40,657 nucleotides of DNA, taken from Bacillus sp. J37 (GTDB lineage: Bacteria > Bacillota > Bacilli > Bacillales > Bacillaceae). Below, in pieces: positions 4,684-34,139 of the stretch. The translations under genes and the position numbers were made by a program. How positions within the stretch are numbered: the stretch's first letter is position 1; every line of letters begins with the position of its first letter. The stretch covers positions 1 to 40,657 of the forward strand of contig NZ_JAEK01000046.1 of assembly GCF_000518865.1 (NCBI RefSeq), read 5' to 3'. The notes beneath the pieces are model-generated. The model was not told the origin of the DNA and ran no database searches. It saw nothing but the letters and a program-made list of their open reading frames with translations.

Positions 4684-7412
4684 ACATGCATTAAAGAGAA
4701 TAACTGATCCAGGTTAATAGGCTTACTAATATAATCCGTCGCTCCAACCTCTAAGCATTGCTCTCTGCTATGTTTCATCGCCTTTGCCGTTAATGCAATA
4801 ATTGGTATATGATTAAACTTTTGTATTTTCCTGATCTCTCTCATTGCCTGAAATCCATCCATCTCTGGCATCATAATGTCCATAAGAACTAAATCCACAT
4901 CTGGATTATTTAGTAACTCTTCTATCCCTTCTTTTCCGTTTTCTGCAATAACAATATTCAGCTCATATTTTTCAAGAGCTACAGTTAACGCATATACATT
5001 TCGAATATCATCATCAACTATAAGGATTTTCTTACCTTTGAGTAATGACTTCCCCTGTTCTTCCTTTATATGATGTTCCATATCCCCATTCTCGTTATTT
5101 TTTACTACCAACGTGTAGTTTTCCTCACGTGTCACTGCAGCCTCTTCTATCGAGAAACGATCAATCATCGTGTTTTTCTGTTCATCATAAGGTAAGTATA
5201 AAGTAAAGGTACTCCCCTTTCCTTTCTTACTGTTCACATCTAAAAATCCACCTAATAAGTGAGCTATATTTTTACTTATTGAAAGTCCCAGTCCAGTACC
5301 ACCATATTGCCTACTCGTTGTTCCATCCGCTTGTTTAAACGCCTCAAAAATTACTTCTTGTTTTTCTTCATCAATTCCAATTCCAGTGTCAGTGACAGAA
5401 AAAGCAATCATCGATGTTACTTGGTTACTTCCTATGTTAAATTGTTTTAAGCTTTCTTTATTTACTTTTTGAACAGATAATAAAATGCTTCCATGCTCAG
5501 TAAATTTAAAGGCATTTGATAAAAGATTTTTTAAAATTTGATGTAATCTTTGTTCATCTGTTAAAAGAATTTCTGGTAAATCACCATGAAACTGGATTTT
5601 AAAGTCTACGTTTTTTTGGCGAGAAATCGGAGAGAATTGCCCAATAATAAATTCTTTTATTGTTTGCAGTTTTACCTCCTTAGGTATTACCTCTAACTTT
5701 CCAGATTCAACTTTTGCTAAATCTAAAATATCGTTAATGAGTTTCAATAAATCATTACCTGAAGAGAAAATCGTACTAATATACTCTTGTTGTTTAAAAG
5801 TAAGGTTACCCTCACGATTTTCTGATAAGATTTTTGCTAATATTAATAAACTATTAAGTGGCGTTCTTAATTCGTGGGACATATTCGCCAAAAACTCAGA
5901 TTTATATTGCGAGCTTATCTCTAGTTGTTGAGCTTTTTCTTCAAGTGCCTCTCGAATCCTTTCAACTTCTTGTTTCTTCTGCTCAGAAGTTTCATACTGC
6001 TCCTCAAGCTTTTCATTTGTCGTTCTTAATTCTTCTTGTTGAACCTGCAATTCTTCTGATTGCGCTTGGAGCTCTTCTGTAAGTGCTTGTGACTCTTGTA
6101 ACAATTGATCTACTTTCATCCTGTTCATAATACTATTAATTGTAATGCCTATATTACTACTCACTTCTTCTAGAAGTTTAATATGAGAACTACTAAATAC
6201 ATTAAATGAGGCAACCTCTATAACTGCTAACACATTACCTTCAAATTGAACAGGCAGGATCATTATATTTTTAGGTGTTCCCTTTCCCAAGCCTGAATGT
6301 ACATTTATATAATCATCTGGAATACTTTTAAGTAAAATTGGTCTTTTTTCAGCTGCACTTTGCCCAATAAGCCCCTCTCCGAAACGAAAATACTCTAATG
6401 AATTATTTTCATCAAACAAGGCATATGAAGCCATTTTCTTTAAATACTTGTCACTATTTTTCACTTCCTTAACATAAAAAACACCTAAACTTCCTCCTAC
6501 CATAGGAACAAGCTTCGTTATCAACCTTTCTGATAACATCTTGATATTTTCAACTTCAGGATACATCGTAGCTATTTCGGCAAACTTCGTTTTAAGCCAG
6601 CTATTTTCCTCTGCTTCTTCCTTTAATTTCTTTTCGAGCTTACTATGATTCTCTAAGGCAATGGCCATTTTATTAAACGCAATGGCTATTTCACCAATTT
6701 CACCTTTTTGAGTTATCTCAATTCTAGGTAAATGATCAAAATGACTATTTGTAGCACTTTTCATTACTGAAGTAACATGATTAAGATTATTTGTCATCCG
6801 TTTGATAATCCAAATCGTGTATCCAACTCCAATAAGTAAGCCAATGGCTAAAAATACATAAATGTTTTTAACAGCCCAATTATATGTATCTCTCGATCTT
6901 AAAAGTTCATTTTTCATTTCTTGTTCTTGTAGTCCTTGAAGAAGTTCCGCAATGTGAATCATTCTCTTTCTTATAAGATCTGCTTCATTCCATAGCGAGG
7001 AATTGACTTCAGTTTCTTGTGCTGATAAAAGTTGCTGAACAATAGCTAAATAAGACTCTTGTAATGTTTTATACTTTACAATTAATTCTTTGGATTTCTC
7101 TTGAGTATCTTTATCTTCAAGTTCCTCCAACGACTGCTTTAAGTTCGTCTGCGACTCTTCCCAAGCATTAAGTACTTCTCTATTGCTTGTGGATGACTGA
7201 TTAAGGGCAGTAAGTTCCCTTAAATGTCTATCAATATTTGCAGTCTCGTACTTAATATTTGTAGCCAAATTTATTCTATTATTTAAATCATTTACAACTA
7301 CATTCATGTTAACTGTTGAATGCTCAAGCATGCCCATTAATATCACAACTATGATTGAAATGAGCAGCAGCAATGACACTATACTCATATAAAGCTTTGT
7401 TTTAAACTTCAT
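4659..7412 (-). CDS. Membrane hybrid histidine kinase (CHASE3-like/HAMP/GAF/HisKA/HATPase/REC), RsbK-like
   Basis: The 917 residues divide into a first membrane helix (about 8-28), an extracytoplasmic all-helical segment of about 150 residues (CHASE3-like), a second helix (about 183-203), HAMP (about 203-258), GAF (about 295-430), a Gln/Glu-rich coiled coil (about 432-505), HisKA with His513 in ANMSHELRTPLN, an HATPase with DTGIGID and GGTGLGLSIS, and a C-terminal receiver with Asp845 in VLMDIMMPEMDGF. This matches the architecture described for B. cereus RsbK, the input kinase of the sigma-B pathway, and the CheR-type gene next to it strengthens the comparison. No RsbY-type PP2C phosphatase gene and no sigB lie in the window, so the output is unknown. 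The start ATG follows CGGAGGTAAC. It is the first gene of the operon. Confidence 0.9.
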   Translation of the reverse strand: MKFKTKLYMSIVSLLLLISIIVVILMGMLEHSTVNMNVVVNDLNNRINLATNIKYETANIDRHLRELTALNQSSTSNREVLNAWEESQTNLKQSLEELEDKDTQEKSKELIVKYKTLQESYLAIVQQLLSAQETEVNSSLWNEADLIRKRMIHIAELLQGLQEQEMKNELLRSRDTYNWAVKNIYVFLAIGLLIGVGYTIWIIKRMTNNLNHVTSVMKSATNSHFDHLPRIEITQKGEIGEIAIAFNKMAIALENHSKLEKKLKEEAEENSWLKTKFAEIATMYPEVENIKMLSERLITKLVPMVGGSLGVFYVKEVKNSDKYLKKMASYALFDENNSLEYFRFGEGLIGQSAAEKRPILLKSIPDDYINVHSGLGKGTPKNIMILPVQFEGNVLAVIEVASFNVFSSSHIKLLEEVSSNIGITINSIMNRMKVDQLLQESQALTEELQAQSEELQVQQEELRTTNEKLEEQYETSEQKKQEVERIREALEEKAQQLEISSQYKSEFLANMSHELRTPLNSLLILAKILSENREGNLTFKQQEYISTIFSSGNDLLKLINDILDLAKVESGKLEVIPKEVKLQTIKEFIIGQFSPISRQKNVDFKIQFHGDLPEILLTDEQRLHQILKNLLSNAFKFTEHGSILLSVQKVNKESLKQFNIGSNQVTSMIAFSVTDTGIGIDEEKQEVIFEAFKQADGTTSRQYGGTGLGLSISKNIAHLLGGFLDVNSKKGKGSTFTLYLPYDEQKNTMIDRFSIEEAAVTREENYTLVVKNNENGDMEHHIKEEQGKSLLKGKKILIVDDDIRNVYALTVALEKYELNIVIAENGKEGIEELLNNPDVDLVLMDIMMPEMDGFQAMREIRKIQKFNHIPIIALTAKAMKHSREQCLEVGATDYISKPINLDQLFSLMHVWLYSKEG

Positions 7413-7797
7413 GTTACCTCCGATATGATTAGGAAAAACAAGATTTTAATTATTCAGATAATAACCTTTGCACTCTTACATATTTTGTTATAATCATACT
7501 TTAAATGATGAAATTTCGTCTAGTGAATCTTCAAAAAATATTATATTTTAGATAATATTTTTCTATTAAAGTATTTATCATATTACTTTTATTTATTTCA
7601 AAATATTAATATAGCAACTCACGAAACAAGGATGAATTCGTTACTTTGTCCCTATATGTTTAAAAACTCTCCTTTCTACGCTTCTATCAACAGGGTACTT
7701 ATCTAACCAACCACTTTTCTCAAAAGCTATACCAAGATAGTTTATTTAACTACTTTTTAATTTTCAGAAAAAGGTGAAAAAACTCGAATGGGACGGA

Positions 7798-7820
7798 GGG
7801 ACAGGTTCATTGTCCCAAAA
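7798..7820. repeat. REP-like palindrome (copy 2 of 2, complete)
   Basis: GGGACA (7798-7803) and TGTCCC (7811-7816) form the arms of a small palindrome with the 7-base loop GGTTCAT; the 18 bases from 7803 are repeated exactly at 331-348. Related GGGACA/TGTCCC intergenic palindromes are, to my recollection, common in Bacillaceae genomes. The similarity to the copy-1 region continues loosely into the AT-rich flank and the terminator hairpin. Confidence 0.6.
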
Positions 7821-7868
7821 ATAAATAGTTTAGATTTATTCTCATAAAAAACTTAGAAAATCAGTATT

Positions 7869-7904
7869 AAAACCCCCTTCACTACAAATTGTGAAGGGGG
7901 TTTT
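7869..7904 (-). terminator. Intrinsic terminator of the bacteriocin operon
   Basis: A perfect 10-bp stem CCCCCTTCAC (7873-7882) / GTGAAGGGGG (7891-7900) with an 8-base loop, bordered by A and T runs. It stands about 70 bases downstream of the last small membrane protein gene. Confidence 0.8.
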
Positions 7905-7972
7905 CCTCTCTTAAACAACACGGCTTATTCAATGTCGATAAACCGCTACAATTTTCAACATCCATTCTTACA

Positions 7973-8260
7973 TTATTGCGAAGACCATAAGATCGTAATA
8001 AAAAGGAGAAACAATAGATACAACAAACTAACCACCCGAAATAGCCCTTTCTTCGTTTGAAAAGGTGGTCGGAACACCATTATTAGGATTGCAGGAGCGA
8101 ACAATGTAAGCAGGAAATATTCCACCCTAATAAAAACCATACAAACAGCAGCAACTATAGAAATAAAAAATATGGCTATATAAGCTGTACTATTATTCCC
8201 AGTACTTTCTTCTTCTGTTTCATTCAACAGCTGATCTACCTTTAATTTTTTAAATAACAT
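7973..8260 (-). CDS. Small basic membrane protein, candidate bacteriocin immunity protein
   Basis: The 95 residues begin with a short polar stretch (to about residue 26) and then contain three strongly hydrophobic segments (about 27-45, 46-64 and 76-93) separated by basic loops (RPPFQTKKGLFR). No conserved domain is recognised. It is the last gene of the circular bacteriocin operon, 17 bases after the DUF95 gene, with a good ribosome site (AAGGAGATTGTC before ATG). Circular bacteriocin clusters normally include a small, hydrophobic, cationic protein that protects the producer, often beside the DUF95 gene; size, charge and position fit that role. The assignment is inference from context and not from sequence similarity. 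Confidence 0.7.
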   Translation of the reverse strand: MLFKKLKVDQLLNETEEESTGNNSTAYIAIFFISIVAAVCMVFIRVEYFLLTLFAPAILIMVFRPPFQTKKGLFRVVSLLYLLFLLFITILWSSQ

Positions 8261-8277
8261 GACAATCTCCTTCTCTA

Positions 8278-8835
8278 TTAAAGTAATGTTAATAAAAATG
8301 GGGTTACTGTTGCCTCTATTACAGCAGCTATTAGGGTGAAGCAGACAATCATCACAAGAAAGATACTAATATCTTGGATTAGATAGATTTTACTCTTTCC
8401 TTTCAATTTCATCATAACCGTATCTAATAGTTTAAACCCAATAGCCCCTGCTACAATCATAGACGGAATTTCAAAAACTCCATGCGGTAATAAGGCGACT
8501 AAGACATATGGCATGCTATTGCCTAATTCTAAGCTATGAACAGCGGATAGGCCAACAAGAAAGCCGTTCATGACAAGAAGAACCATCGTAAAAATACCAA
8601 AAGTAAAAATAGTAAAGCTAATGAGTAAATCCGCTACTAAGTTATGAATAAAAAACTCCATAATCGTAGGGTTTTCACTAGTTACAGGTTGATCAACCGG
8701 TAAGACATTACTAAATATAATTCCTAATAACAGTCCCACAACATAGCAACTACTCGCTACCACTAACACTCTACTATTTCGCTTAAAAAATATCTGCATT
8801 TGTAGTTTCCATATCACGAATGATGAGATTTTCAA
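8278..8835 (-). CDS. DUF95 / SpoIIM-family membrane protein of the bacteriocin cluster
   Basis: A polytopic membrane protein of up to 185 residues with about five hydrophobic segments. The middle reads FGIFTMVLLVMNGFLVGLSAVHS and LLPHGVFEIPSMIVAGAIGFKL, which is the hallmark LxPHGxxEIPA-like motif of the stage II sporulation protein M (DUF95) family. Family members are a constant part of circular bacteriocin clusters (for example the CirC-type proteins), where they work with the ABC ATPase in secretion and immunity. The longest frame starts with TTG at 8835 (AAGGG close upstream) and overlaps the ATPase gene by 53 bases; ATG at 8799 is another in-frame choice. Translational coupling with the ATPase is likely. 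Confidence 0.82.
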   Translation of the reverse strand: MKISSFVIWKLQMQIFFKRNSRVLVVASSCYVVGLLLGIIFSNVLPVDQPVTSENPTIMEFFIHNLVADLLISFTIFTFGIFTMVLLVMNGFLVGLSAVHSLELGNSMPYVLVALLPHGVFEIPSMIVAGAIGFKLLDTVMMKLKGKSKIYLIQDISIFLVMIVCFTLIAAVIEATVTPFLLTLL

Positions 8836-9499
8836 AATCCCTTAGGTCCTCTAAATGTTCGTATTCTTTTAAAATACGCCCATTTAGCAAAATGCCAACC
8901 CGATCACATAGGTGTTGGGCAATATCTACTAGATGAGTAGACATAAATATAATATTCCCTTTGCTAGCATAGTCCTTTAAAAAGCTTTTCATAAACTTAG
9001 TTGTGGGAGGATCAAAAGAGCTCAATGGTTCATCTAACAATAAAACATGCGGCTTATGAACAATCGCTCCTGCTACTGACAACTTATGCCTCATCCCATG
9101 AGAAAATGTTGAAATCATATCATCCTGACGTTCCAGTAACGAAAACTGCTCGAGCAAGTAATTAATATTGTTATGCTTTTGTCCAGCCGGCACTCCCTGT
9201 AAATCAGAAATAAACTCTAGGTATTCTCTAGGTGTTAGATAATTATATAAAAAAGGTGAATCAGGAACATACCCAATATTCTTCAAATAATCAGACCTTT
9301 TTGCATCAACCTTACAATTTCTAATGATAATTTCACCTTCATCTTGCTTAACCATACCTAGTATACATTTAATTAGTGTAGATTTCCCTGCACCATTAGG
9401 ACCAAGTAAACCATAAATTTCTCCTTCTCTAACTGTTACATTCACTTGATTTAAAACATTTTGATTCCCATAGCTTTTCGCAACATTATGAACAATCAC
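8783..9499 (-). CDS. ABC transporter ATPase of the circular bacteriocin cluster
   Basis: A 238-residue single nucleotide-binding domain: Walker A GPNGAGKST (about 34-42), a Q-loop region, the signature FSHGMRHKLSVAG (SHGM in place of the usual SGGQ), Walker B VLLLDEPLSSFDP, and the switch STHLVD with its histidine. It lies in the cytoplasm and should pair with the large membrane protein at 9496-11217, whose stop overlaps this start (ATGA). Circular bacteriocin loci such as circularin A and amylocyclicin carry such an ATPase for export and self-protection. The altered signature is common in this ABC-2-like exporter branch. Confidence 0.9.
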   Translation of the reverse strand: MIVHNVAKSYGNQNVLNQVNVTVREGEIYGLLGPNGAGKSTLIKCILGMVKQDEGEIIIRNCKVDAKRSDYLKNIGYVPDSPFLYNYLTPREYLEFISDLQGVPAGQKHNNINYLLEQFSLLERQDDMISTFSHGMRHKLSVAGAIVHKPHVLLLDEPLSSFDPPTTKFMKSFLKDYASKGNIIFMSTHLVDIAQHLCDRVGILLNGRILKEYEHLEDLRDFENLIIRDMETTNADIF

Positions 9500-11217
9500 C
9501 TCTTAACCTCCCAATTTGTCGTTCCGATTCGTTTAATCCAATAGTAGTAAAATACAAAAAAGGCTATAAGCAAGCTGATTGAGCTTACACAAGTAATAAC
9601 AGCGAAAGTGCTCGTTCCGATGAAGTTTCTCCATAATAAAAAACCGAGCACTCCATATATATTTAAATTCAATGTTAACACAATCCCAAGAATGGAATGC
9701 TCAAAGACAGAAGCTTTAAGTGATGACCCAATGTCTTCGTAGTTCTCCCAATCAAGCCTAGGGTAAAGAAATGTACCAATAACCTGTGCTGAACTTAGAA
9801 TCAGAGTCATAGAATTAATCGCTATAAATATAATAAGAGCTGTTTGAGCCTCTAATCTGAAGCCACCTAACACCCCTATGAACAAACAATTCACCATTAT
9901 TAAAATAATGACTACATGAATAGTCGCTTTCGCAGTAACTAGTTGATAGAGTGAGGCGCCACTATTTTTATACAAAAATAAATTTTCCCTCTCGGCATCA
10001 GCAGATGTGATTCCAAGCAAACCATCTCCTAATAATGACACATTGTAGGTTATTGCAAATAATATCGGATAAATGATCAGTAGTTTGGGAAAGTCAAACC
10101 ATTGTTGCAACACACTTAACCCTATTAATGCCCCTATCTCGGTAGCGAGCATATACGCTGCTAAATATAATCGTTTTTTGATAACAAAATTCGCTCTGCT
10201 GATCGCCAACAGATCTTTTCTCATTATCGCGACCAAATTGATCGGCATGATTCTTTCGAGCCTTCGACTAAGCTTAAAAATAATACCTCTTTTTTGTGTA
10301 AAAAGCTCTCTACTGGTTTCAGATAACGTGGCAACATCTTGTATTTTCACTTTTTTTAATACAACTTGATTAGCTATAAATATCGAGCTAACACCAATAA
10401 GCAAGAAAAGACTTACATAATAAATAACACGATTATTATTCACCACAAGATTAAACACCCAGTTTGTCGGTAGGTATTCACTAGTGAAAACTCGATCTAA
10501 ATAAAAAGTCTCTACAAATTGAGTAACCGCTAAAAAGAGATCCTGGTTCCCAAAATAATGATAACCTCCCCAACCGATCACCAGTGTCGTAATAGCTGAC
10601 ATAGCTGATACAAAAACTAACGTAAGACTTCTTTTTACTAAAGAACTTAGAGCATAGTGAATTATTCTAATATAGATTATGTATGTAATAGATGAATATA
10701 AAGAAATCATTCCTATCAAAAAAATGATAAAACAGACGAACACAACCATCAGAAGGATGCCTTGTTTAAAGGTGAGATGAAGATACATTGCAATCCAAAA
10801 TAATACAGGAAGCAAAATCAGGATATAAGAAAAAATAACATGTAATACAATTGATGTCATAAACCTGACAAACAGTACTTCATATGGATTTGCTCTAGCT
10901 GTATATAGAATGACATAGTCTTCCGGAAAAGCGTATCTTTGTAGTGTAGTTGTAGAAGACCTCAGACTATTCATGAAAGACCAAAAAATAACTAAATTTA
11001 CAATAATATGAATCATACTAGTAGAAAAATATGACCCTATAATCGAAACTAAATGATAAATAATAAATTGGTACATAGCGAAAAGACCAATAAATATAAG
11101 GTATAACCGTTTTTGTTTCAGCAATCTTTCCCCTGTTGGAAAAAAGAACAGAAGCCTATTTAGATTTCTTCTATATGTTAAATAGATATTTGCTCGAACA
11201 ATCTCTCTATTAATCAT
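9496..11217 (-). CDS. Large polytopic membrane protein (CirB-like maturation/export component)
   Basis: A 573-residue protein with roughly eleven to thirteen hydrophobic segments in two halves, separated by a basic cytoplasmic loop at about residues 285-345 (LKKVKIQDVATLSETSRELFTQKRG, with more basic residues after it). No catalytic motif is obvious. It resembles no standard ABC permease that I can name, but its size, topology and position directly after the precursor gene match the large membrane protein found in circular bacteriocin clusters and proposed there to take part in cyclisation or export together with the ATPase. The ATG at 11217 follows AAGGAGAAAAT. A hairpin in the 70-base gap upstream may lower expression relative to the precursor. 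Confidence 0.78.
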   Translation of the reverse strand: MINREIVRANIYLTYRRNLNRLLFFFPTGERLLKQKRLYLIFIGLFAMYQFIIYHLVSIIGSYFSTSMIHIIVNLVIFWSFMNSLRSSTTTLQRYAFPEDYVILYTARANPYEVLFVRFMTSIVLHVIFSYILILLPVLFWIAMYLHLTFKQGILLMVVFVCFIIFLIGMISLYSSITYIIYIRIIHYALSSLVKRSLTLVFVSAMSAITTLVIGWGGYHYFGNQDLFLAVTQFVETFYLDRVFTSEYLPTNWVFNLVVNNNRVIYYVSLFLLIGVSSIFIANQVVLKKVKIQDVATLSETSRELFTQKRGIIFKLSRRLERIMPINLVAIMRKDLLAISRANFVIKKRLYLAAYMLATEIGALIGLSVLQQWFDFPKLLIIYPILFAITYNVSLLGDGLLGITSADAERENLFLYKNSGASLYQLVTAKATIHVVIILIMVNCLFIGVLGGFRLEAQTALIIFIAINSMTLILSSAQVIGTFLYPRLDWENYEDIGSSLKASVFEHSILGIVLTLNLNIYGVLGFLLWRNFIGTSTFAVITCVSSISLLIAFFVFYYYWIKRIGTTNWEVKR

Positions 11218-11240
11218 ATTTTCTCCTTATTCACAAACAA

Positions 11241-11275
11241 GAAAGGGAAAAAATAGATATTTTCCCCTCCCTCAA
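11241..11275 (-). promoter_or_regulatory. Hairpin between precursor and maturation genes (possible attenuator)
   Basis: GGGAAAAAATA (from 11245) can pair with TATTTTCCC (to 11266), with a small bulge, on the minus-strand transcript 20-45 bases after the bacteriocin stop codon. A partial terminator or RNA-stabilising hairpin here would favour the abundant precursor over the membrane machinery, as is usual in bacteriocin operons. Strength is only estimated by eye. Confidence 0.45.
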
Positions 11276-11287
11276 TTTCATATATGA

Positions 11288-11641
11288 TTACCATTTTGCA
11301 GCGTAATCTTTTCCTTTTTTCTTTGCTAACGCTTTAGCTGTTTGTACCATTCCAGCTGTGATAAGACCTACACCTCCAAGAACGGCAGCTAGTAAACTTA
11401 ATGCTGTTAGAATATCAGATGTCACTAAAATGACTCCAATCGCAGCATATGCTGTTCTTTCACTAATCTTTAAGTTAGTCGCTAAATCTAGGGCAAAGGA
11501 ATCTGAAATCCCCTGCACAGAAAGCATTGCAGACGATGCATCAGTTGAACCCATCGAATAAGTGACTGCCATTACTAATGAAAGAAATCCTATAACACCA
11601 ATTGCTTTAATCATATTGTTCGTTCTAAGAACCATGCTCAT
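11288..11641 (-). CDS. Circular bacteriocin precursor (uberolysin/circularin A/amylocyclicin type)
   Basis: The 117-residue product has a leader with one hydrophobic segment and a hydrophobic, helical, cationic C-terminal part ending KKKGKDYAAKW. From memory, amylocyclicin begins LASTLGIS and ends KKYGKKYAAAW. Here LATNLKIS begins at residue 53, so I predict a 52-residue leader and a 65-residue core, Leu53 to Trp117, joined head to tail as a Leu-Trp bond. Such peptides fold into a bundle of four or five helices and permeabilise Gram-positive membranes. The core has a Gly-rich turn (GGVG) and basic residues clustered in its last helix, both usual. The ribosome site AAAGGAGGTGAAAAA is the strongest in the window, fitting a highly made product. 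Leader length and cleavage point are inferred by alignment from recall. Confidence 0.88.
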   Translation of the reverse strand: MSMVLRTNNMIKAIGVIGFLSLVMAVTYSMGSTDASSAMLSVQGISDSFALDLATNLKISERTAYAAIGVILVTSDILTALSLLAAVLGGVGLITAGMVQTAKALAKKKGKDYAAKW

Positions 11642-11701
11642 TTTTTCACCTCCTTTCAGTAATGTACGATCGTTGATTTATTTGCCCTTCACCGATGCTT
11701 G

Positions 11702-12361
11702 TTATTTGATGAGCAAAAGTGACGAAACCGAAAGGATACCAAGGATGAACATTCCACCCATTATGACAATCGACCGTACAAATGAAAGGCCATGAGCTTC
11801 TTTCAAAGCGACACACCCAAGAATGGTTGACCACCAAAAGAATGGATCAATGACTAGATTAATTAAGGTAGCTAACGGCCCCTTTTCCTCCGAATAAATA
11901 TAGGAAAAAGAAAAGTCACTTCCTAAGAAAAGAGAAAACATAGTTAATAACACAAATTTAATCCCAGTAGGAATCGTAGCTAATATATAGGTTACAAAAA
12001 ACTTCTTCGCTGTTCCATTTCCTCCAAAAAGCACGCCCGCTATATGTAAGAAAAGAAAACTCATTAAAGTCATTGCTGAAAATTGAAAGACTCCTAAGAA
12101 GGTTAATAGAGTCTTAATCAAATGGTCCACGTTTGCTGAATACTCTAATTGATTTACTTCAAAAACGGTCGTCAACATCTGAACAATAGATGGGAAGATC
12201 GATAGATAAAACCCTAACAATGTAAACTGAATACCAAAGAATAAGATCCAAGCATTTCTATAACTGTTCGTTTTCTGATAAAAATAATTAAAAAAGACAT
12301 GTGGCAAAAAAATAAAAGCATAAATAAAATTGAGTGATTTGCCTGCTTGACTCTGTTCCAT
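11702..12361 (-). CDS. Five- to six-helix membrane protein, Yip1-like, first gene of the bacteriocin operon
   Basis: A 219-residue integral membrane protein with about five hydrophobic segments and a short polar N-terminus (MEQSQAGKSLN). The pattern of a GFYLSIFPSIV segment, a central LFLHIAGVLFGGNGTAKKFFVTY loop and an IDPFFWWSTILGCVALKEAHGLS segment resembles YIP1-domain (PF04893) bacterial membrane proteins, but I regard that as tentative. It begins the operon, 60 bases before the precursor gene, after AGGAGGCCTT and an intergenic region carrying the proposed ComA site. A membrane protein in this place is known in some circular bacteriocin clusters and may assist processing, export or immunity. 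No catalytic motif was seen. Confidence 0.7.
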   Translation of the reverse strand: MEQSQAGKSLNFIYAFIFLPHVFFNYFYQKTNSYRNAWILFFGIQFTLLGFYLSIFPSIVQMLTTVFEVNQLEYSANVDHLIKTLLTFLGVFQFSAMTLMSFLFLHIAGVLFGGNGTAKKFFVTYILATIPTGIKFVLLTMFSLFLGSDFSFSYIYSEEKGPLATLINLVIDPFFWWSTILGCVALKEAHGLSFVRSIVIMGGMFILGILSVSSLLLIK

Positions 12362-12390
12362 AAGGCCTCCTGGATATTTTCCTTATCTGT

Positions 12391-12470
12391 TTCATTTATT
12401 TTCTAAAACAATCGTACCAAGGAATCACTCTTCCTACACCGACATGATTTGTCGGCTGTCCGCCATTATG
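12391..12470 (-). promoter_or_regulatory. Bacteriocin operon promoter region with a ComA-box-like dyad
   Basis: A perfect inverted repeat CCGACA (12439-12444) / TGTCGG (12450-12455) with 5-base spacing lies 78 bases upstream of the first bacteriocin-operon gene. A further TGTCCG half site follows at 12457-12462, in phase with the right arm. About 22 bases downstream on the minus strand stands a TACGAT that could be the -10; no good -35 is present, as in activator-dependent promoters. B. subtilis ComA binds TTGCGG-N4-CCGCAA, which differs, but the ComA encoded here is diverged. A lone TTGCGG occurs at 12493-12498. The assignment is inference from position and symmetry. Confidence 0.5.
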
Positions 12471-12512
12471 AATGTAGCTTATCCATGTTTTTTTGCGGTG
12501 TCTCTTCGTTAA

Positions 12513-12554
12513 ATAAAAAAACTATTCTGGCATGAGCTCAGAATAGTTTTTTTG
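12513..12554 (-). terminator. Terminator of the comQXPA operon
   Basis: ACTATTCTG (12521-12529) and CAGAATAGT (12539-12547) form a perfect stem with a 9-base loop, flanked by A and T runs, 2 bases after the comA stop codon. It separates the quorum-sensing operon from the bacteriocin operon. Confidence 0.88.
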
Positions 12555-12555
12555 G

Positions 12556-13200
12556 TTATCTAATTATAATTTCAGGTATTAATCCTTCTTTTACCCCCTT
12601 TTCAACTGCCTCAATTCGTGAAGCTACTCCTAATTTTTTGTAAATAGAACTTAATTCTCTTTCGACAGAACGTTGACTCAGAAACAGCATCTCTGCAATT
12701 TGAAAATTGGTTGTTCCCTTAGCTACTTCAATCAGCACCTGCTGCTCTCTTTCTGTTAACACAACTCTCTCTTCGGCGTTATTCGCAGTCACTTGTGTTA
12801 CTCTTATTTTCTTAACTAGCTCCAACGGCACTAAAATATGTCCATGTAAAGCTGACTGAACAGCTAGTTTAATCTGGTCACTTGAGCTATTTTTACTAAC
12901 GATCCCGTCTGCTCCCATTTCTAAACATAAGTTAAAATGTGATTCAACATCTAAGCCAGTGTACATGATCACTTTCGTTTTCGGAGATTTTGTTTTAATC
13001 TCCTTCATCCACTCTAATCCATTCTTTCCTGGGAGATGTATATCCATCAGTACGAGATCAAAATACTGAGTTTGCAAAATGTTTGATAACTCTGTTTTTG
13101 TACTAGCAAGCGTTACATTAACGGCTTCAAGCTCATTAATAATTGCTTTCGTTCCAATACCTACAGCTACATGATCATCCACTATTAATAAATTAGTCAT
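12556..13200 (-). CDS. comA: ComA-type response regulator (NarL/LuxR family)
   Basis: At 214 residues it is exactly the length of B. subtilis ComA. An N-terminal receiver domain carries the acidic pair DD (8-9), the phosphoacceptor Asp53 in VLMDIHLPG, the Thr of YTG and the lysine of SKNSSS. A C-terminal LuxR helix-turn-helix follows (LTEREQQVLIEVAKGTTNFQIAEMLFLSQRSVERELSSI shortened here to its motif ends LTEREQQVL and SQRSVERELSS). It should be phosphorylated by ComP and then activate target promoters as a dimer. The nearest candidate target is the bacteriocin operon directly downstream, with a dyad in its leader. It begins 16 bases after comP and ends at a strong terminator. Orthology to ComA rests on length, motifs and operon order. 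Confidence 0.9.
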   Translation of the reverse strand: MTNLLIVDDHVAVGIGTKAIINELEAVNVTLASTKTELSNILQTQYFDLVLMDIHLPGKNGLEWMKEIKTKSPKTKVIMYTGLDVESHFNLCLEMGADGIVSKNSSSDQIKLAVQSALHGHILVPLELVKKIRVTQVTANNAEERVVLTEREQQVLIEVAKGTTNFQIAEMLFLSQRSVERELSSIYKKLGVASRIEAVEKGVKEGLIPEIIIR

Positions 13201-13216
13201 TCCACCAAGTCACCTA

Positions 13217-15433
13217 CTATAAGGGAAGAGTTATATAAATCCTTAATCCAGTTGTTTTTATGTTCGATATGTGAATCGTTCCACCCCTAGCCGAAACACG
13301 CTGTTTCATGCCAAAAATTCCAAAGTGGCCTTCTTTATTCAAATCTTCTTCCTTTTTTATCCCTTTTCCGTCGTCTTCATAAGAAATAAAAAGATGCTCT
13401 CCTTTATCTTCTATTTGAATGTTGATCTGAGTCCCTTCAGCATGTTTGATACCATTACTCACTAACTCTTGGATAAGACGAAAGATTGTTCGATAAAGTT
13501 GAGGTGAAATGGCACCATCAACCTGATAGACTAAGTTGATTTTGTATGATGAGCGTAATACTTTATTGCTAATAAAGCTTTCCAACACTTCTTTTAAATC
13601 CTTAAACCTTTCATCAGGAGGCTGGAGTTCTTGAAGCGTCTCTCTAGTAATCGCAATCATGTCCTCCGCATTCTCCTCAAGCTGTTTAGTCTGTGAAAGA
13701 TAAAACTGCTGATCATATCCTTTTTCCAAATCTATACGGTGACGTTCCAACTGTCTTCTATGAAGAATCATATCCTGTAAAACCGTGTCATGAAGATCAA
13801 GAGCTAGGTTCATTCTTTCCTTTTCAGCCCAATTAAAAAACAAATTTTCGATCCACTGGTCATGCTCCTTCTGATTAACTCGTTTCTCTAACTCAGAAAC
13901 TACCTCTTCTATCTGCTTTAAATTCTCAAACTTCATTGTTAGATAGGAATTTACAATTCTAACCCAGTCATTTTGTATACTGCTTAGCTTTCTCTGTCCA
14001 TGTATTCTTCCCACGATTTCGTAGCGAGTCATTCCCTCTCTACCTATCTCAATTCTAATTTGTTTACTAGAATTAGAATGGTTCGCTTCTTTGTCAGATG
14101 AATTTCTAATTTGTACTATGTGTGCATCCTTCATACCAAGTACGTCTCTCATTTCTAATTCCACTATTTTAAGAATATGATCACGATTGTTTTCTGTTCG
14201 GATGAGGGAATTCAACTTCGTTAAACTCTCTAAGTAAAAGGTGCGATCAGAAAAAAGACGGTTTCGCAATCTTCTGTCTAGCACTTCTTTTATAAATAAA
14301 AAAACCATAGAAATGATCAATAAAATACCAAATAATTGTACAACAGTCGAACCATTTACCGTATGAAATCCAAATGCCAAAATTACGACAATACATAGGA
14401 AGGCTAATATAATCGCGATAAAGAAATAATAAAGCAGCTTGTTTATGGTTAGATTAGCAAAGTAATAGTTATCGGTAACCAATACATACAGTAGTGTGAT
14501 CGGAATAAACAAAAGGAATAGCAATGACAGCTCAAGCGATAAAGAATAGGCTCCCACTACTAAATCCGGAATTAAATAAAGACTGATAAATGGAAGAACA
14601 CTTACCACTAAAGTACGTGACATTACTTGTGTTCTCTTTTCATACATTGTATCTTTCGCTTTATATTTTAGAAAAAGCAAAAGGATAATTGCTAACGCAA
14701 TCGTCAGTAAGAAACAGACCAAAAAGATTTGTCCGGATAAAACAGGGAGAAAGGTTAAAACAGAGTAATAGAGGATAATAAGAACGATTGTACTAAAACC
14801 AGAAAATTGACGTGCCTTCTTTTCCCAACTCTCCTCTACATGCTCAACTACCATATTTAAAACTAATTTAAAATAAAGGTAAGGCAACAGTAAAAGGGAC
14901 AGGGTATAAATATGTCTTATATATAAAAATTGTTTCCCATATAGCCATGCTGTCACTAAGCATAGTGATAAAATTAGTAAGAAGAAAACTAACTCAAAAT
15001 GCTTATTACTTTGAAGTAATCTTTTATTGGAAATGATCATTGCAATTACGGACAACATCAAAACGAACAACGGCATTAATACATATGTAATATACTGATT
15101 CATTAATTTTAAAGAGTGAGTAAATTTAAAATCAAGCTGTTCGTTATTTCTTTCCACCGTGATACTTGAGACTTGCTCTACTCTTCTATTAACAATGAAC
15201 TCGTCAAATGAATCCTGACCATCTATTCTTACGATCTTATCTCCAATTTGCAAACCTGCTATATAACCCGCCCCTACCTCATCTAAATAATTGATCCGAT
15301 AGGTTCCGGCCTCTTCTTTAACAAATACCCCAACATACAACGTAGATATACTAAAGAAATTTAAATATATGATAAAAAACAGCAAGAATCCAATTCCTAT
15401 GACTCTTACTGCTTTTCCCTTTAATTTCTCCAA
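13217..15433 (-). CDS. comP: ComP-type membrane histidine kinase (ComX pheromone receptor)
   Basis: A 738-residue kinase with ComP architecture: a first membrane helix (about 10-30), an extracytoplasmic PDZ-like segment (about 40-105, VGAGYIAGLQIGDKIVRIDG), about seven to nine further membrane helices up to about residue 390, a cytoplasmic linker, a HisKA_3 motif with His548 in LALDLHDTVLQD, and an HATPase with NGIKHAEG and DDGKGI. The PDZ-plus-polytopic sensor region, which recognises prenylated ComX, is typically divergent between strains and co-evolves with comX and comQ. The longest frame begins with TTG at 15433 inside the end of comX (13-base overlap), without a clear ribosome site; coupled translation is likely and the exact start is unsure. 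Confidence 0.92.
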   Translation of the reverse strand: MEKLKGKAVRVIGIGFLLFFIIYLNFFSISTLYVGVFVKEEAGTYRINYLDEVGAGYIAGLQIGDKIVRIDGQDSFDEFIVNRRVEQVSSITVERNNEQLDFKFTHSLKLMNQYITYVLMPLFVLMLSVIAMIISNKRLLQSNKHFELVFFLLILSLCLVTAWLYGKQFLYIRHIYTLSLLLLPYLYFKLVLNMVVEHVEESWEKKARQFSGFSTIVLIILYYSVLTFLPVLSGQIFLVCFLLTIALAIILLLFLKYKAKDTMYEKRTQVMSRTLVVSVLPFISLYLIPDLVVGAYSLSLELSLLFLLFIPITLLYVLVTDNYYFANLTINKLLYYFFIAIILAFLCIVVILAFGFHTVNGSTVVQLFGILLIISMVFLFIKEVLDRRLRNRLFSDRTFYLESLTKLNSLIRTENNRDHILKIVELEMRDVLGMKDAHIVQIRNSSDKEANHSNSSKQIRIEIGREGMTRYEIVGRIHGQRKLSSIQNDWVRIVNSYLTMKFENLKQIEEVVSELEKRVNQKEHDQWIENLFFNWAEKERMNLALDLHDTVLQDMILHRRQLERHRIDLEKGYDQQFYLSQTKQLEENAEDMIAITRETLQELQPPDERFKDLKEVLESFISNKVLRSSYKINLVYQVDGAISPQLYRTIFRLIQELVSNGIKHAEGTQINIQIEDKGEHLFISYEDDGKGIKKEEDLNKEGHFGIFGMKQRVSARGGTIHISNIKTTGLRIYITLPL

Positions 15434-15591
15434 GCTTTTCTTATTGAAGCGTCTATGGTTAAGTTCGATTGAAAGACTTCCTTTAGAAGTTCATTTTCTT
15501 CTACCGTAAGACCAACCATCTGAACGGTCCCAACTTTAATTTTTTCGATTAGATCTGGATTTTCCATCAGAGTTTGTATAATTTCCTGCAT
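15421..15591 (-). CDS. comX: ComX pheromone precursor
   Basis: This 56-codon gene lies exactly in the gap between comQ and comP. Its product starts MQEIIQTLMENPDLIEKIK and ends SIRKAWRN. From recall, B. subtilis ComX starts MQDLINYFLNYPEALKKLK and ends ITRQWGD, so both the MQ-I-N-P-K pattern and a tryptophan third from the end are shared. Trp54 is the predicted residue modified by ComQ with a farnesyl or geranyl group; the C-terminal part, probably the last 6-12 residues, would be the secreted pheromone. AAGGATG precedes the ATG with suitable spacing, 1 base separates it from the comQ stop, and its end overlaps comP. Cleavage site and prenyl length cannot be read from sequence. Confidence 0.93.
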   Translation of the reverse strand: MQEIIQTLMENPDLIEKIKVGTVQMVGLTVEENELLKEVFQSNLTIDASIRKAWRN

Positions 15592-15592
15592 A

Positions 15593-16501
15593 TTAATTCA
15601 TCCTTTCAATGTAACTTATAAAATTCTTTAAGTCATGAGAGTACAGGGGATTTTGTTTCACTGCTTGTATATATTGTTTTTCAAAACGCTTTATATAAAA
15701 GTGACAAAATGGCATCGCACCCTTACATTCAAATTCTCTTATGACATTATTCTTCAATTGAATTAATTCATTATACGTCAGCTCAGATCGATAATACTTA
15801 CCGATTATGCCATCGAAGTCATGCATCATATAAAGGATTGGAAGAATCCTCCGTCTGTTTTGAAGATCTGTGTTCGTAGTCAATTGATAGATTGCATCGA
15901 TATCATTATAAATTTGTGCAACAACACCTAGATAGCGGGAATGGTCCTTAATTTGTTCTAGCAATCGATTATCTTCTACACCTGCAGCAATAGCACCTAT
16001 AGAGCCTGCCAGAGCAAAAAGCGCCCCAGACTTCTGCATAACCATCTTAAAATAGTCCACTTCATTCTGGACTCCATTCTTCAGATCAGAAGCTTGACCG
16101 TTTGCACTATCAACTAACAAATTGCAACACAACTGCTTCATCTTATTAATAGTTAACAAGGGAAACGGGAGCTCGTCCAGCAAGGACAACGCTAGTGGCA
16201 TCAGCATAAATGCCTGATTCATTATTAAACCATTCTCATCATGTATGTCACCATCTTGAATATCATCTAACTGATCAGTCAGATAAACGAGAAGGTCTAC
16301 GATAGCACCAAGCTGTTCATGTCTTTCGTCTGTCGCTGTAATACCATTTACATGTGTCATCATCCAATCACTAAAAAAAAAGGATCGTGAACTCACTTCC
16401 TCTATAACCTGATCTATATCAAAGGAAGTTAGCTGTTCCTGTATTTGTTTCTTTTTTAATAATCGACTGAAGACTATTCTCTTTTGGCTCATTTCTATCA
16501 A
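15593..16501 (-). CDS. comQ: ComQ isoprenyl transferase, modifies ComX
   Basis: A helical protein of about 300 residues of the polyprenyl-synthase fold. The first aspartate-rich motif is DDIQD (79-83), preceded by LTDQL as in ComQ, and a second metal-binding region reads QIYNDIDAI. ComQ proteins transfer a farnesyl or geranyl chain from the diphosphate to a tryptophan of ComX and take part in its processing and release. The gene directly precedes comX and is first in the four-gene operon. The longest frame starts TTG at 16501; an in-frame ATG at 16492 is equally possible. A good sigma-A promoter stands just upstream (16529-16557). ComQ diverges fast, so the call depends on the motif and gene order together. 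Confidence 0.9.
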   Translation of the reverse strand: MIEMSQKRIVFSRLLKKKQIQEQLTSFDIDQVIEEVSSRSFFFSDWMMTHVNGITATDERHEQLGAIVDLLVYLTDQLDDIQDGDIHDENGLIMNQAFMLMPLALSLLDELPFPLLTINKMKQLCCNLLVDSANGQASDLKNGVQNEVDYFKMVMQKSGALFALAGSIGAIAAGVEDNRLLEQIKDHSRYLGVVAQIYNDIDAIYQLTTNTDLQNRRRILPILYMMHDFDGIIGKYYRSELTYNELIQLKNNVIREFECKGAMPFCHFYIKRFEKQYIQAVKQNPLYSHDLKNFISYIERMN

Positions 16502-16528
16502 TCTTTCAATAAAGAAGTCTATAAAAAC

Positions 16529-16557
16529 AGTTTAAAAATTTTTAGATCAATTGTCAA
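16529..16557 (-). promoter_or_regulatory. Sigma-A promoter of comQXPA
   Basis: On the minus strand TTGACA (16557-16552) is followed after exactly 17 bases by TAAACT (16534-16529), about 28 bases upstream of the first possible comQ start. The -35 is perfect and the -10 differs from TATAAT at two positions, so the operon is probably expressed at a basal level throughout growth. Confidence 0.7.
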
Positions 16558-16732
16558 ATTATGTATTAATGTGCAATTCCCAAAAACAACACTTTATCCC
16601 TATTGTAACAGCAACGATAAGTAGAGATCCCCCTTTCACCTCCTCCGAACAAAGTCTATGGACCTAGTTAAAAAATAAGATCTATGTTTCATAATTATAA
16701 AAACAGGACTTTTTCACTCCAAGAAGATTCTA

Positions 16733-16783
16733 AGAAGAACTAAGACTTATCACCAATCTAATGACGAAAGCCTTAGTTCTTCT
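16733..16783. repeat. Long hairpin holding copy 1 of a shared 30-nt motif
   Basis: A perfect 12-bp stem AGAAGAACTAAG (16733-16744) / CTTAGTTCTTCT (16772-16783) encloses a 27-base loop. The segment 16746-16775 (CTTATCACCAA...TAATGACGAAAGCCTTA) matches 34006-34036 at about 27 of 31 positions. It lies 20 bases past the DUF3231 stop and may serve as that operon's terminator, though the T-tract is poor on both strands. Confidence 0.55.
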
Positions 16784-16802
16784 AATACTAATCACCAATA
16801 AG

Positions 16803-17330
16803 CTAATCCTTATAAAAAGGTGGAATACGAAGCCATTCCTTCTTATCTAAATACTGTTTGACAACTAAACCGGCCATTGTTTTCCTATAGATGATTTTTG
16901 AGAAAATCAATCCAACATCTGCACGAATTGATTCTGAAAGTCCTTTAGCTGCAGTAGTTACCCCTTGAGCGAGATTATAGGACATTAAGTTCGCCAATTC
17001 TTCATCGTTTAATTTTGCCCCTTCCGGTATACTCTGAAATTCTCCCATTGGTTTTTCTGAAGTTGACTTGGGTAATGGTACACCTTCCTTTTTAAGAAAT
17101 TCAATAAGTTCATCTCTAATCGGGATATGTAATGTGTTTCTTGTATCCGTTAATATTCTTTTCAACTCCGGGTCTTGAGCCGTATTAATCCCCAGTTCTT
17201 CATTACGTAGTGTTGTTTCAGTACCCAACAGGAAGAACCAAAGGTTTGATACTTCCATTACAGTCAATGGTCTTTTTTCTCCGTCCATAAAAGGTGCAAA
17301 TGCATCATGAATCACTTCAAAAAATCTCAT
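16803..17330 (-). CDS. DUF3231-like protein
   Basis: About 175 residues, mostly helical, with PLTVMEVSNLWFFLLGTETTLRNEE, an internal EFLKKEGVPLP, LNDEELANLMSYNLAQ, and an end reading SIRADVGLIFSKIIYRKTMAGLV then KEWLRIPPFYKD. The repeated 'helix pair, VPLP, SIR-DVG, IPPFY' pattern is that of the DUF3231 family, ferritin-like helical proteins abundant in Bacillus spore formers and sometimes tied to spore coats; their function is unknown. The gene follows the GMC oxidoreductase by about 70 bases and may share its transcript. I choose ATG at 17330, about 10 bases after GGTGGG; a TTG at 17348 is too close to its AAGGA. Confidence 0.72.
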   Translation of the reverse strand: MRFFEVIHDAFAPFMDGEKRPLTVMEVSNLWFFLLGTETTLRNEELGINTAQDPELKRILTDTRNTLHIPIRDELIEFLKKEGVPLPKSTSEKPMGEFQSIPEGAKLNDEELANLMSYNLAQGVTTAAKGLSESIRADVGLIFSKIIYRKTMAGLVVKQYLDKKEWLRIPPFYKD

Positions 17331-17402
17331 ATATAAAATTCCCACCAATCCTTGGATATAATTTGTTATGGTGGTATTTTTTCCATTTTATTAGGAAAAA
17401 TG

Positions 17403-19106
17403 CTAATAAAAATAACTTTCCATTAGTTTTTCAGCAGTACGTACAGCTAATGCTTGTGTAGTAAGAGTAGGATTCGCTCCACCCAAACCATTATAGTGGA
17501 CACTATTATCAGCAATATATAGCTGCTTTACTTGCAGTGATTCACAATTCTCATCAACAACAAAACCTATTCTCATCGTGCCTTCTATATGAATCATCAT
17601 GCCAGGTGGCCAATTGGACCATATAATTCTTTTTGCTCCTGCTTTACGTAAAAGGTCAGCAGCTAGTTTCATCAACTCACTGCGTTTTTTAACTGACTGG
17701 AAAGTTGGAGAATATTTCACAATTGGAACGGGCCCATTTTCATCACTAATCTGAGGATCTACAGTCACTCCGTTCCGCTGATCCACATCATCATCTGTTG
17801 ATACTAAGATACTTAAGGATCTACGATAGGCGTCCATCCATTCACTTAACTCATACCCAGAGGGACTTCCCTTCACATCCCATGGATTATTAGGTTTAGG
17901 AGGATGTAAGAAGGAATATCCAGATTCACTGATTCCATAAAAAGAAGCCGTTAAACCAGGACTCATCCCCACTGACTGCAATGCACCCAAACCTGGATAA
18001 TCCAACCTTGCTCCACATGTATTTCCCACAAACGGATTAATCTCTGTATTTCCAATGATTGAAAGTAAATCTTTTCCACCAAAAATCCCCGTTACCCAGT
18101 CCATATAATGATTGACTAACCCTCTCCCTACCCATGAATTTTCCGGTAATCCTGAATTCATCCAAAGACGCGGAGTTTCAATACTTCCGGAAGCCATTAC
18201 GATGACTTTTGCTCTTACTACCTCCTCTTCCCCTGTCCATGTATTTCTTATTTTTACCCCATTGGCTCTAAGCCCAGTGGCTCCATCTTTTTCAGTAAGG
18301 ATTTTAACAGCAAACGCATTAGGACGTATCCTAACATTTCCTGTTTTTAAAGCTAAAGGGACATAACTAACATTTGTTGACCGTTTTGCGACTTTATCTA
18401 CAGATGGTCCATTTGAACATCCATTGATACAATGTCCGGCAAGTGTACATCCCTCCATCCATGATAATTGTTCATTTGAAATAATAGGATTATTAATCTT
18501 TTCATTGGGAAGTAAAATGGCGTTAGGCTGCGGTCTATACCCAGGGGCTGTCACATCAAGTGTAGGGACCATGGGCAATCCGAGCTTTTTGGCTCCATAA
18601 TAAAATAATTCCTCCTTGGCGGTTACAGGCGCGAAATTCACCGGCAATGCAGCTTCTACATTCTCATAGTAAGGAATAAGTTCTTGATAAGATAGAGGCC
18701 ATTTATTATCAATTGCAATTGGATAGGCACGGGGACAATTGGCTGTATAGACTTGGGTCGTTCCTCCAACTCCAGCACATTGCCAAATCATCCCCTTCTG
18801 GCTCACACCCCGAAACCACTGGGCCCGTCTGCGGTCAGCCGGCCCCCAACGATATCTTCCAGTAACCAAATCATTCATGTTCATTTCATTTTGATCTATT
18901 AATTGTTTATATAAGACTACATCCAAATCAGCTGGTGTAGAGCTATATGTATCCCCAGGTGCACCATTTGGATTCGGCCACCTCTTGTTCCCGAACCATG
19001 GTCCCGCTTCCAGGACTAGTACGTTTAATCCTTTTTCTCCAAGCTCTTTTGCAACAACAGCTCCACCTCCGCCTGCTCCAATGACAATCACATCCTGATA
19101 GTCCAT
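17403..19106 (-). CDS. GMC-family FAD-dependent oxidoreductase
   Basis: The 567 residues start with an FAD-binding Rossmann motif VIVIGAGGGGAVVAKEL and LVLEAGP, followed by the GMC signature region (QCAGVGGTTQVYTANCPR), a Cys-containing CTLAGHCINGCSNGPS loop near residues 217-232, the VIVMASGSIETPRLW segment, and a C-terminal domain with HIEGTMRIG and SVHYNGLGGANPTLTTQALA supplying the catalytic His and the FAD contacts. Members oxidise alcohols, sugars or sterol-like substrates and, when paired with a small subunit, feed electrons to the respiratory chain (gluconate 2-dehydrogenase type). No signal peptide is present. The ATG overlaps the stop of the preceding partner gene (TAATG). Substrate is unknown; the loop with three cysteines could bind a cluster or form disulfides. 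Confidence 0.87.
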   Translation of the reverse strand: MDYQDVIVIGAGGGGAVVAKELGEKGLNVLVLEAGPWFGNKRWPNPNGAPGDTYSSTPADLDVVLYKQLIDQNEMNMNDLVTGRYRWGPADRRRAQWFRGVSQKGMIWQCAGVGGTTQVYTANCPRAYPIAIDNKWPLSYQELIPYYENVEAALPVNFAPVTAKEELFYYGAKKLGLPMVPTLDVTAPGYRPQPNAILLPNEKINNPIISNEQLSWMEGCTLAGHCINGCSNGPSVDKVAKRSTNVSYVPLALKTGNVRIRPNAFAVKILTEKDGATGLRANGVKIRNTWTGEEEVVRAKVIVMASGSIETPRLWMNSGLPENSWVGRGLVNHYMDWVTGIFGGKDLLSIIGNTEINPFVGNTCGARLDYPGLGALQSVGMSPGLTASFYGISESGYSFLHPPKPNNPWDVKGSPSGYELSEWMDAYRRSLSILVSTDDDVDQRNGVTVDPQISDENGPVPIVKYSPTFQSVKKRSELMKLAADLLRKAGAKRIIWSNWPPGMMIHIEGTMRIGFVVDENCESLQVKQLYIADNSVHYNGLGGANPTLTTQALAVRTAEKLMESYFY

Positions 19107-32480: not shown

Positions 32481-32495
32481 TTAGATTGGGTTGTT
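32463..32495. terminator. Hairpin at the end of the tasA-sipW operon
   Basis: AACAACCCAATCT (32463-32475) and AGATTGGGTTGTT (32483-32495) form a perfect 13-bp stem with a 7-base loop. The sipW stop codon lies within it. The T-run is better on the plus strand; on the minus strand it is followed by TCAGTG, so termination of sipW may be partial. Confidence 0.6.
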
Positions 32496-33038
32496 TTTAT
32501 ATTTATCTTCTAAATGTCTCAACGTTTTCCGTATAGTCCATATAGAGTACCCTAGTAACAAAATACCAGGTATGATCATAAATAATATATTCCCATTAGG
32601 AGATTGAGCAAAATTTATGAAATAACCCAAAAGAGGAATCGTAAATCCATTGTACACTGCTTCAACATTTTCAGCTAAAACAGGGTTTGTATCTGGCGCA
32701 TTATTATGATCCCCCTTGGTCAAATATTGAATATGACTGTCTGTATGTGTAACTTCAACTATTCGGTGGGTAACAAGTCGATTTTCTTCTATAAAAGTAA
32801 TAACATCCCCTTTTTGGAGGTTTTCCCTTTCCTCTTCGTTAACTGACTTCACAGCAATAACTGATCCTGTTTGAATCCCTGGTTCCATTGACCCAGACAG
32901 TACTGTTTTTAATTGGTAGCCAAATACCGATGGTTCGCCATTCGTAAGTTTTGTGGAAAGCACGAGTCCCGCTACACTCACTAGTAAAAGCACCAATATA
33001 CACGTAACCATACGATTCACCCATTTTAAAAATTTCAT
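32481..33038 (-). CDS. sipW: Signal peptidase I, SipW (ER) type
   Basis: About 185 residues with an N-terminal membrane helix, then VLSGSMEPGIQTGSV carrying the nucleophilic serine, GDVITFIEENRLVTHRIVEV with histidine in place of the usual bacterial lysine base (the ER-type feature), YLTKGDHNNAPD, and a C-terminal membrane helix. SipW removes the signal peptides of TasA and TapA and is needed for biofilm amyloid. It is the last gene of the locus with two TasA paralogues. I take ATG 33038 as start (GGGAGATTGAG before it, giving MKFLKWVNRM); the frame is open to a codon at 33080 that has no better site. Confidence 0.92.
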   Translation of the reverse strand: MKFLKWVNRMVTCILVLLLVSVAGLVLSTKLTNGEPSVFGYQLKTVLSGSMEPGIQTGSVIAVKSVNEEERENLQKGDVITFIEENRLVTHRIVEVTHTDSHIQYLTKGDHNNAPDTNPVLAENVEAVYNGFTIPLLGYFINFAQSPNGNILFMIIPGILLLGYSIWTIRKTLRHLEDKYKNNPI

Positions 33039-33051
33039 CTCAATCTCCCTC

Positions 33052-33312: not shown

Positions 33313-33355
33313 AACGATCTCCACCTTGCTTCATTTCAAACTTAGTTGTTCTCTT

Positions 33356-34126: not shown

Positions 34127-34139
34127 TTAAATAAAAATA

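Follow-up and report, generated by a model that had tools for sequence, protein, structure and literature searches.

A comQXPA locus beside a circular bacteriocin operon in Bacillus sp. J37: a candidate module for density-controlled bacteriocin production

Gene content of the locus

The DNA analysed here (the window) is the whole of a 40,657-nt stretch from Bacillus sp. J37 (contig NZ_JAEK01000046.1), whose genome, designated G000, is treated as a member of the genus Metabacillus. On the minus strand, from position 16501 to 7973, the window carries comQ, comX, comP and comA, a terminator and then the six genes of a circular bacteriocin cluster. We suggest that the two operons form one module through which a circular bacteriocin is made in response to cell density, and that a dedicated ComX/ComP/ComA circuit probably switches the bacteriocin genes on.

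The com genes occupy 16501-12556 in the canonical order on one strand. These coordinates, the strand and the order are as claimed in an earlier reading made without database searches (the sequence-only reading), and all four products have Pfam matches. ComQ (15593..16501, minus strand as for all features of the block; 302 aa) is a polyprenyl-synthase-like isoprenyl transferase (PF00348, 4e-12), and the Asp-rich DDxxD motif expected in an enzyme of this type reads DDIQD. ComX (15421..15591; 56 aa) is a pheromone precursor (PF05952, 1.8e-13; 50.6 bits against a cut-off of 25) ending in ...KAWRN, with Trp as the third residue from the end. ComP (13217..15433; 738 aa) is a sensor histidine kinase (HisKA_3, 1.8e-6; HATPase_c, 5.1e-12) whose gene overlaps comX by 13 bases. 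ComA (12556..13200; 214 aa) is a NarL-type response regulator (Response_reg, 1.9e-23; GerE, 1.6e-15); its DNA-binding part matches the solved ComA structure 2krf (2.8e-11), and over the full length the NarL and VraR structures outscore 2krf. The gene order, the protein families and the C-terminal Trp of ComX are like those of Bacillus subtilis comQXPA, where the signal runs from ComX through ComP and ComA to srfA.

There is a possible sigma-70-type promoter upstream of comQ (16529..16557; TTGACA-17-TAAACT, 10/12), taken from a promoter scan that overall found fewer sites than in shuffled sequence (35 against 44.6); its hexamers are kept in the relative G005 described below. The intrinsic terminator proposed between comA and the bacteriocin operon (12513..12554) is well supported, as the fold of 12505-12562 reaches -19.4 kcal/mol (z -6.93) and none of 200 shuffles did as well; a simple terminator scan did not list it. 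An Rfam search of 7000-17500 gave no match.

The first gene of the bacteriocin operon starts at 12361, on the same strand, 194 bases past the end of comA and 151 past the terminator, in agreement with the claim that a circular bacteriocin cluster begins about 200 bases on. It encodes a Yip1-family membrane protein (11702..12361; 219 aa; PF04893, 1.2e-9, above cut-off). The second gene encodes the circular bacteriocin precursor (11288..11641; 117 aa; PF09221, 2.7e-6, 27.9 bits against a cut-off of 23.6). The precursor scores 25.8 bits with NCBIfam TIGR03651 (circularin A/uberolysin), below the cut-off of 30.7, and is therefore not assigned to that subfamily. The predicted core is residues 54-117 (11291-11482), 64 residues that match enterocin NKR-5-3B (PDB 2MP8; E 2.8e-9) over residues 2-64 of 64. 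Because of this match, and because the Pfam match begins at residue 54, the core is predicted to run from L54 to W117. The amylocyclicin core likewise runs from Leu to Trp.

The operon continues with a 573-aa multi-membrane protein (9496..11217), which belongs to no Pfam or NCBIfam family and is conserved with the cluster, an ABC transporter ATPase (8783..9499; PF00005, 1.9e-31) and a SpoIIM/DUF95 membrane protein (8278..8835; PF01944, 8.4e-24). The last gene encodes p95 (7973..8260), a 95-aa hydrophobic membrane protein that matches no family and is, by eye, weakly cationic; its place in the cluster and its conservation make it a possible immunity protein, a type of protein that in circular bacteriocin systems is small, cationic and hydrophobic. 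A probable terminator, read by eye and unlisted by the terminator scan, follows at 7869..7904. A SpoIIM/DUF95 gene and an ABC ATPase gene are features of circular bacteriocin clusters (PMC6131525), and these genes, together with the core, liken the operon to the enterocin NKR-5-3B/amylocyclicin type. It differs from that type in its Yip1-family first gene and in its complete linked pheromone system. All six operon genes recur in the three nearest clusters (Bacillus pumilus GM3FR, Bacillus swezeyi and Bacillus sp. 28A-2), each also led by the Yip1-family gene. None of the three had a detected comQXPA in the surrounding 10 kb or so.

Conservation of the block and recurrence of the pairing

The bacteriocin is present in two of the 21 genomes of the genus, G000 and G005 (Metabacillus halosaccharovorans DSM 25387). 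G005 has all ten genes at 92-98% protein identity and in the same order, which argues that the arrangement is not due to chance, and all ten frames are open in both species; the kinase-side neighbour of the block in G005, however, is a different gene. In G013 the block is absent from the same site, and the flanking genes, for DUF3231 and the 917-aa kinase, stand only about 420 bases apart, with unrelated sequence holding one 90-aa frame between them. In G011 the sequence passes from window position 16710 to position 8259 with 2 bases in between, so that comQ through the SpoIIM gene are missing and only p95 is left (L157:13958-14275), as an orphan copy with an open frame and a GTG start. Since the block is absent in G013 and only its last gene is kept in G011, it is gained or lost as a unit. 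The sequence-only reading had called it a self-contained, density-controlled module. The unit behaviour bears out the first part of that claim; control by ComA is suggested by the promoter conservation and half-sites considered below.

Of the p95 differences that separate G000 and G005, 12 fall in synonymous and 5 in nonsynonymous codons; for G000 and G011 the numbers are 5 and 7. The latter differences hint at relaxed constraint in G011, and a reading of the orphan copy as a selected 'immune cheater' gene was considered but not adopted. A module that is decaying and silent could account for the lone p95 of G011 and for the small number of genomes in the genus with the bacteriocin. It sits badly, however, with ten open frames in two species, with the pattern of p95 differences between them and with the conserved promoter region, and we regard it as scarcely credible. 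A plasmid origin was also considered and rejected: the plasmid collection held no match to the precursor, and the best ComP match there was 27.5%.

PF09221 was found in 23 of 80 genomes of the family and in 26 of 397 genomes of the order, 25 of the latter above cut-off (the samples overlap). Neither survey gave a genome beyond G000 and G005 with PF05952 and PF09221 within 10 kb. We then searched 46 neighbourhoods, covering the above-cut-off PF09221 places outside these two genomes, for ComQ, ComP and ComA homologues; the below-cut-off matches in G433 and G183:C6 were left out. Of a further set of 10 loci, six were annotated directly and four (L211-L213 and L216) were clusters already covered as L162-L165. 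Two more pairings were present among the 46, in Heyndrickxia coagulans 36D1 (G289) and in G437. With G000 and G005 included, comQXPA was detected within about 10 kb at 4 of the 48 circular clusters, and these four represent three lineages. As a control, 20 regions taken arbitrarily from seven of these genomes gave no case. The value of 4/48 is a lower bound because some of the 46 regions end at contig ends. The expectation that circular clusters usually lack a linked regulator of this kind agrees with the 44 of 48 at which no comQXPA was detected, and the adjacency, kept in G005 and found again in H. coagulans 36D1 and G437, is not a rearrangement of one strain. The pairing of comQXPA with circular bacteriocins is rare but recurrent.

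The arrangement is not the same in each case. In H. coagulans 36D1 comQXPA is about 5 kb from the bacteriocin genes, on the same strand and with another transport operon between, and in G437 the two operons are divergent whereas in the window they share a strand. The 36D1 locus is presumably the unusual comQXPA locus of this strain described previously (Dogsa 2014, PMC4008528), where the first part of section 8 mentions no neighbouring bacteriocin. The bacteriocin operon of G437 contains a transposase-like gene (L203:8537-9610; identified by eye), with the precursor gene on one side of it and the transport genes on the other. In a quick tree of 46 cluster ATPases the well-supported branches (support being the Shimodaira-Hasegawa-like approximate likelihood ratio test alone) force three changes of linkage. 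The window cluster groups with unpaired Bacillus clusters and that of H. coagulans with unpaired amylocyclicin-like clusters. These changes could in principle include losses, and independence is argued from this tree only; L173 and L190, of the 46 neighbourhoods, gave no row, and the ATPases were picked by position, a choice that may be wrong for long-branched rows.

ComQXPA also lies beside bacteriocins of other types. Annotation was extended to the 39 ComX neighbourhoods found beyond the family, including two with matches below cut-off. In G158 (L254:4729-16693) and in the Metabacillus genome G020 (L143:4823-16813), which belong to two families, comQXPA is inside a class II lanthipeptide cluster with LanM, a C39 exporter, a subtilase and a mersacidin-family precursor. 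Between its comQ and comP, L143 has a ComX-like frame on the other strand; by eye this frame carries a Trp close to the C-terminus, and it has no Pfam match. In G129 (L242:9136-18281) genes for small peptides whose leaders are of the double-glycine type (judged by eye) and for a C39-peptidase ABC exporter come after comQXPA on the same strand. G341 (L247:8995-19140) also has such peptides, but they are encoded on the opposite strand, with comA to one side and the C39 exporter to the other. Both loci also have an accessory-type protein. L245 and L250 gave weaker matches to the C39 exporter. In the literature, comQXPA control has been predicted for the cerecidins of Bacillus cereus, which have the comQXPA link in common with the window and are class II lanthipeptides, not circular (PMC10456417). 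ComX has also been reported close to class II lanthipeptide clusters in 22 genomes (PMC12715929), in a lanthipeptide survey whose main text does not contain the term 'circular bacteriocin'.

The J37 genome has three matches to PF05952: in the window and on contigs C89 and C93. The C89 locus is the native comQXPA and adjoins what appears by eye to be an Mrp-type antiporter operon; its comQ belongs to a clade with full support, in which 45 of the 46 rows come from the family. The window ComQ does not fall within this native Metabacillus comQ clade, and the approximately unbiased (AU) test rejected a grouping with the native Metabacillus ComQs (p 0.0005; the groups of this and the other AU test were chosen after the tree was seen). 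This indicates that the window comQ is not a copy of the native comQ of the genus. Six identical rows were dropped from the tree (L029 represents G005, and L006 represents G020), and it has no rows for the loci without a 200-aa ComQ frame (L027, L028, L231, L249, L251, L252 and L253). The window system differs from B. subtilis comQXPA in that it belongs to a divergent lineage and shares its genome with a native comQXPA. The C93 comX adjoins a phosphopantetheinyl-transferase (PPTase)/ABC/BtrH cluster; there (L138:7082-11315; L139 in G011) the order is comX-comP-comA with no comQ seen beside, and an Rce1-like gene (CAAX prenyl endopeptidase family, PF02517) is upstream of comX. A group II intron reverse-transcriptase-like gene, identified by eye, lies near the native com locus of G005 (L141:17030-18304). 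Elsewhere in the window (32481-34721) there is a signal-peptidase-like gene with two TasA/camelysin-like secreted proteins (by eye), as in biofilm-fibre loci.

The intergenic region and candidate ComA sites

The 151-bp promoter region of the bacteriocin operon (12362..12512) is identical to that of G005 at 149 of 151 positions. Between the same two genomes the block genes and two adjacent genes are 92-97% identical, the sequence upstream of comQ is identical at 249 of 301 positions (82.7%; 126/151 in its best 151-column window) and the gaps flanking the precursor gene at 51/59 and 67/68. The promoter scan listed no sigma-70-like site on the minus strand of 12362-12512.

The B. subtilis ComA target consists of TTGCGG-N4-CCGCAA and, after it, a degenerate form of TTGCGG-N5-TTGCGG (PMC4797271). 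The candidate ComA sites (12439..12498, minus strand) consist of CCGCAA (12498-12493), a spacer of 27 bases, the inverted repeat TGGCGG-ACAG-CCGACA (12465-12450), AATCA and TGTCGG (12444-12439). The inverted repeat scores 9/12 against TTGCGG-N4-CCGCAA (23 of 1000 shuffles were as good) and the three-element arrangement 13/18 (11 of 1000). The RE3 match is 4/6 and no RE4 element was seen. CCGCAA is the only exact ComA half-site within the 9-kb block, and no ComA box was found upstream of comQ. The stretches scanned upstream of the operon in the three unpaired Bacillus clusters have no 9/12 repeat, the best being 8/12 with N5. Among the paired clusters, G437 has two exact half-sites (CCGCAA-N28-TTGCGG) in the divergent promoter between comX and the precursor gene. 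In H. coagulans 36D1 the repeat TTTCGGTNNTACCACACAAA occurs three times without mismatch in the genome, in each case between comA and the bacteriocin operon, and TTTCGG recurs at an exact 22-base period in both intergenic regions between them, with four copies following comA and three preceding the bacteriocin operon (L191:5062-5133 and 8948-8997). The promoter region of the window's bacteriocin operon is under constraint, and binding of ComA to it is predicted from a moderate match.

Several points weigh against control of the bacteriocin operon by the linked ComA. A terminator separates the two operons, and the proposed control is a prediction from sequence. Of 8,894 windows of 151 columns, 375 are as conserved (≥149) as the promoter region, and the short gap after the precursor gene (67/68) is also highly conserved. 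The candidate box is equalled by some shuffles and lacks a visible RE4. A search of the window allowing three mismatches gave 8 ComA-box sites against 6.37 expected, and a strict pattern, built from the site itself, occurs once per strand in the genome, a control pattern being equally rare; neither result is therefore taken as proof, and the genome-wide count was dropped as such. The divergent region of G437 has no inverted repeat of 8/12, and no 9/12 repeat was present in the stretches scanned at the lanthipeptide-linked and PPTase-linked com loci. The two H. coagulans intergenic regions resemble each other over a stretch longer than the repeats, and a duplication may be the source of the repeats they have in common. 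Finally, several neighbourhoods are cut by contig ends and the control set is small, and a separate origin of the circular-linked ComQs is not established by the ComQ tree (AU p 0.168; long branches).

The linked ComQXPA might mainly target genes elsewhere, with the bacteriocin as a minor or unrelated passenger. ComA of B. subtilis directly controls about 20 genes in nine units (PMC4797271), and no box was found ahead of the window comQ itself. The strict site pattern, however, occurs nowhere else in the draft genome (weak evidence, as explained above), and comQXPA was lost together with the bacteriocin genes in G011. We consider this explanation very unlikely. Somewhat more room must be left for the two operons being neighbours without a functional link, carried on a common acquired island, with the bacteriocin operon under global regulators or a native ComA encoded elsewhere. 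The terminator between them, the close Bacillus clusters without comQXPA and the C89 locus, whose ComA could act in trans, would all suit such an arrangement. It does not readily explain why the pairing recurs in lineages with different bacteriocin subtypes, why the promoter region is constrained or why both operons are gone together in G011, and on balance it appears improbable.

A proposed circuit and its implications

Because the pairing recurs in two more distant relatives, the bacteriocin is probably switched on by a signal that accumulates from neighbouring cells. By analogy with the ComQXPA family, ComQ would prenylate ComX near its C-terminal Trp and the peptide would be released. ComP would sense the peptide and phosphorylate ComA, and phosphorylated ComA (ComA-P) would bind the half-sites within 12362-12512, activating a promoter that is presumably weak without ComA-P. 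This would drive expression of the Yip1-family gene, the precursor, the 573-aa protein, the ATPase, SpoIIM and p95. As in related circular bacteriocins, the precursor would be cut before residue 54 and closed head to tail from L54 to W117; export would be aided by the ATPase, SpoIIM and the membrane proteins, and p95 may protect the producer. ComA-like half-sites upstream of the proposed target are again a feature in common with B. subtilis, but the proposed target in the window is an adjacent ribosomal bacteriocin operon.

A 2018 review describes the regulation of circular bacteriocins as largely unknown and their activator molecules as unidentified (PMC6131525), and some circular clusters are known to have genes for a histidine kinase and a response regulator in their vicinity (PMC6131525, PMC4517551). 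Among open-licence papers, covered mostly by titles and the openings of abstracts, we found no report of ComX or ComQXPA beside a circular bacteriocin. The suggestion that the pairing is new thus holds for circular bacteriocins as far as our searches went; it does not extend to lanthipeptides, for which the pairing with ComQXPA is already in print, nor to kinase and regulator genes as such.

More broadly, ComQXPA may be a transferable cassette that has been captured repeatedly by unrelated bacteriocin operons (circular, lanthipeptide and two-peptide), with a separate ComX and separate ComA sites for each operon. In that case the ComX peptide with its prenylated Trp would be the inducer that is missing for some circular bacteriocins at least, and a single cell, with three comX loci here, would run several private channels. 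We give this wider proposal an even chance. At the J37 locus the signal gene, the modifying enzyme, the sensor, the regulator and a short conserved candidate target region are all adjacent, and with these components side by side the question of what activates circular bacteriocins becomes testable. The recurrence in three lineages suggests a general design, in which a pheromone kit plugs into different antibacterial operons.

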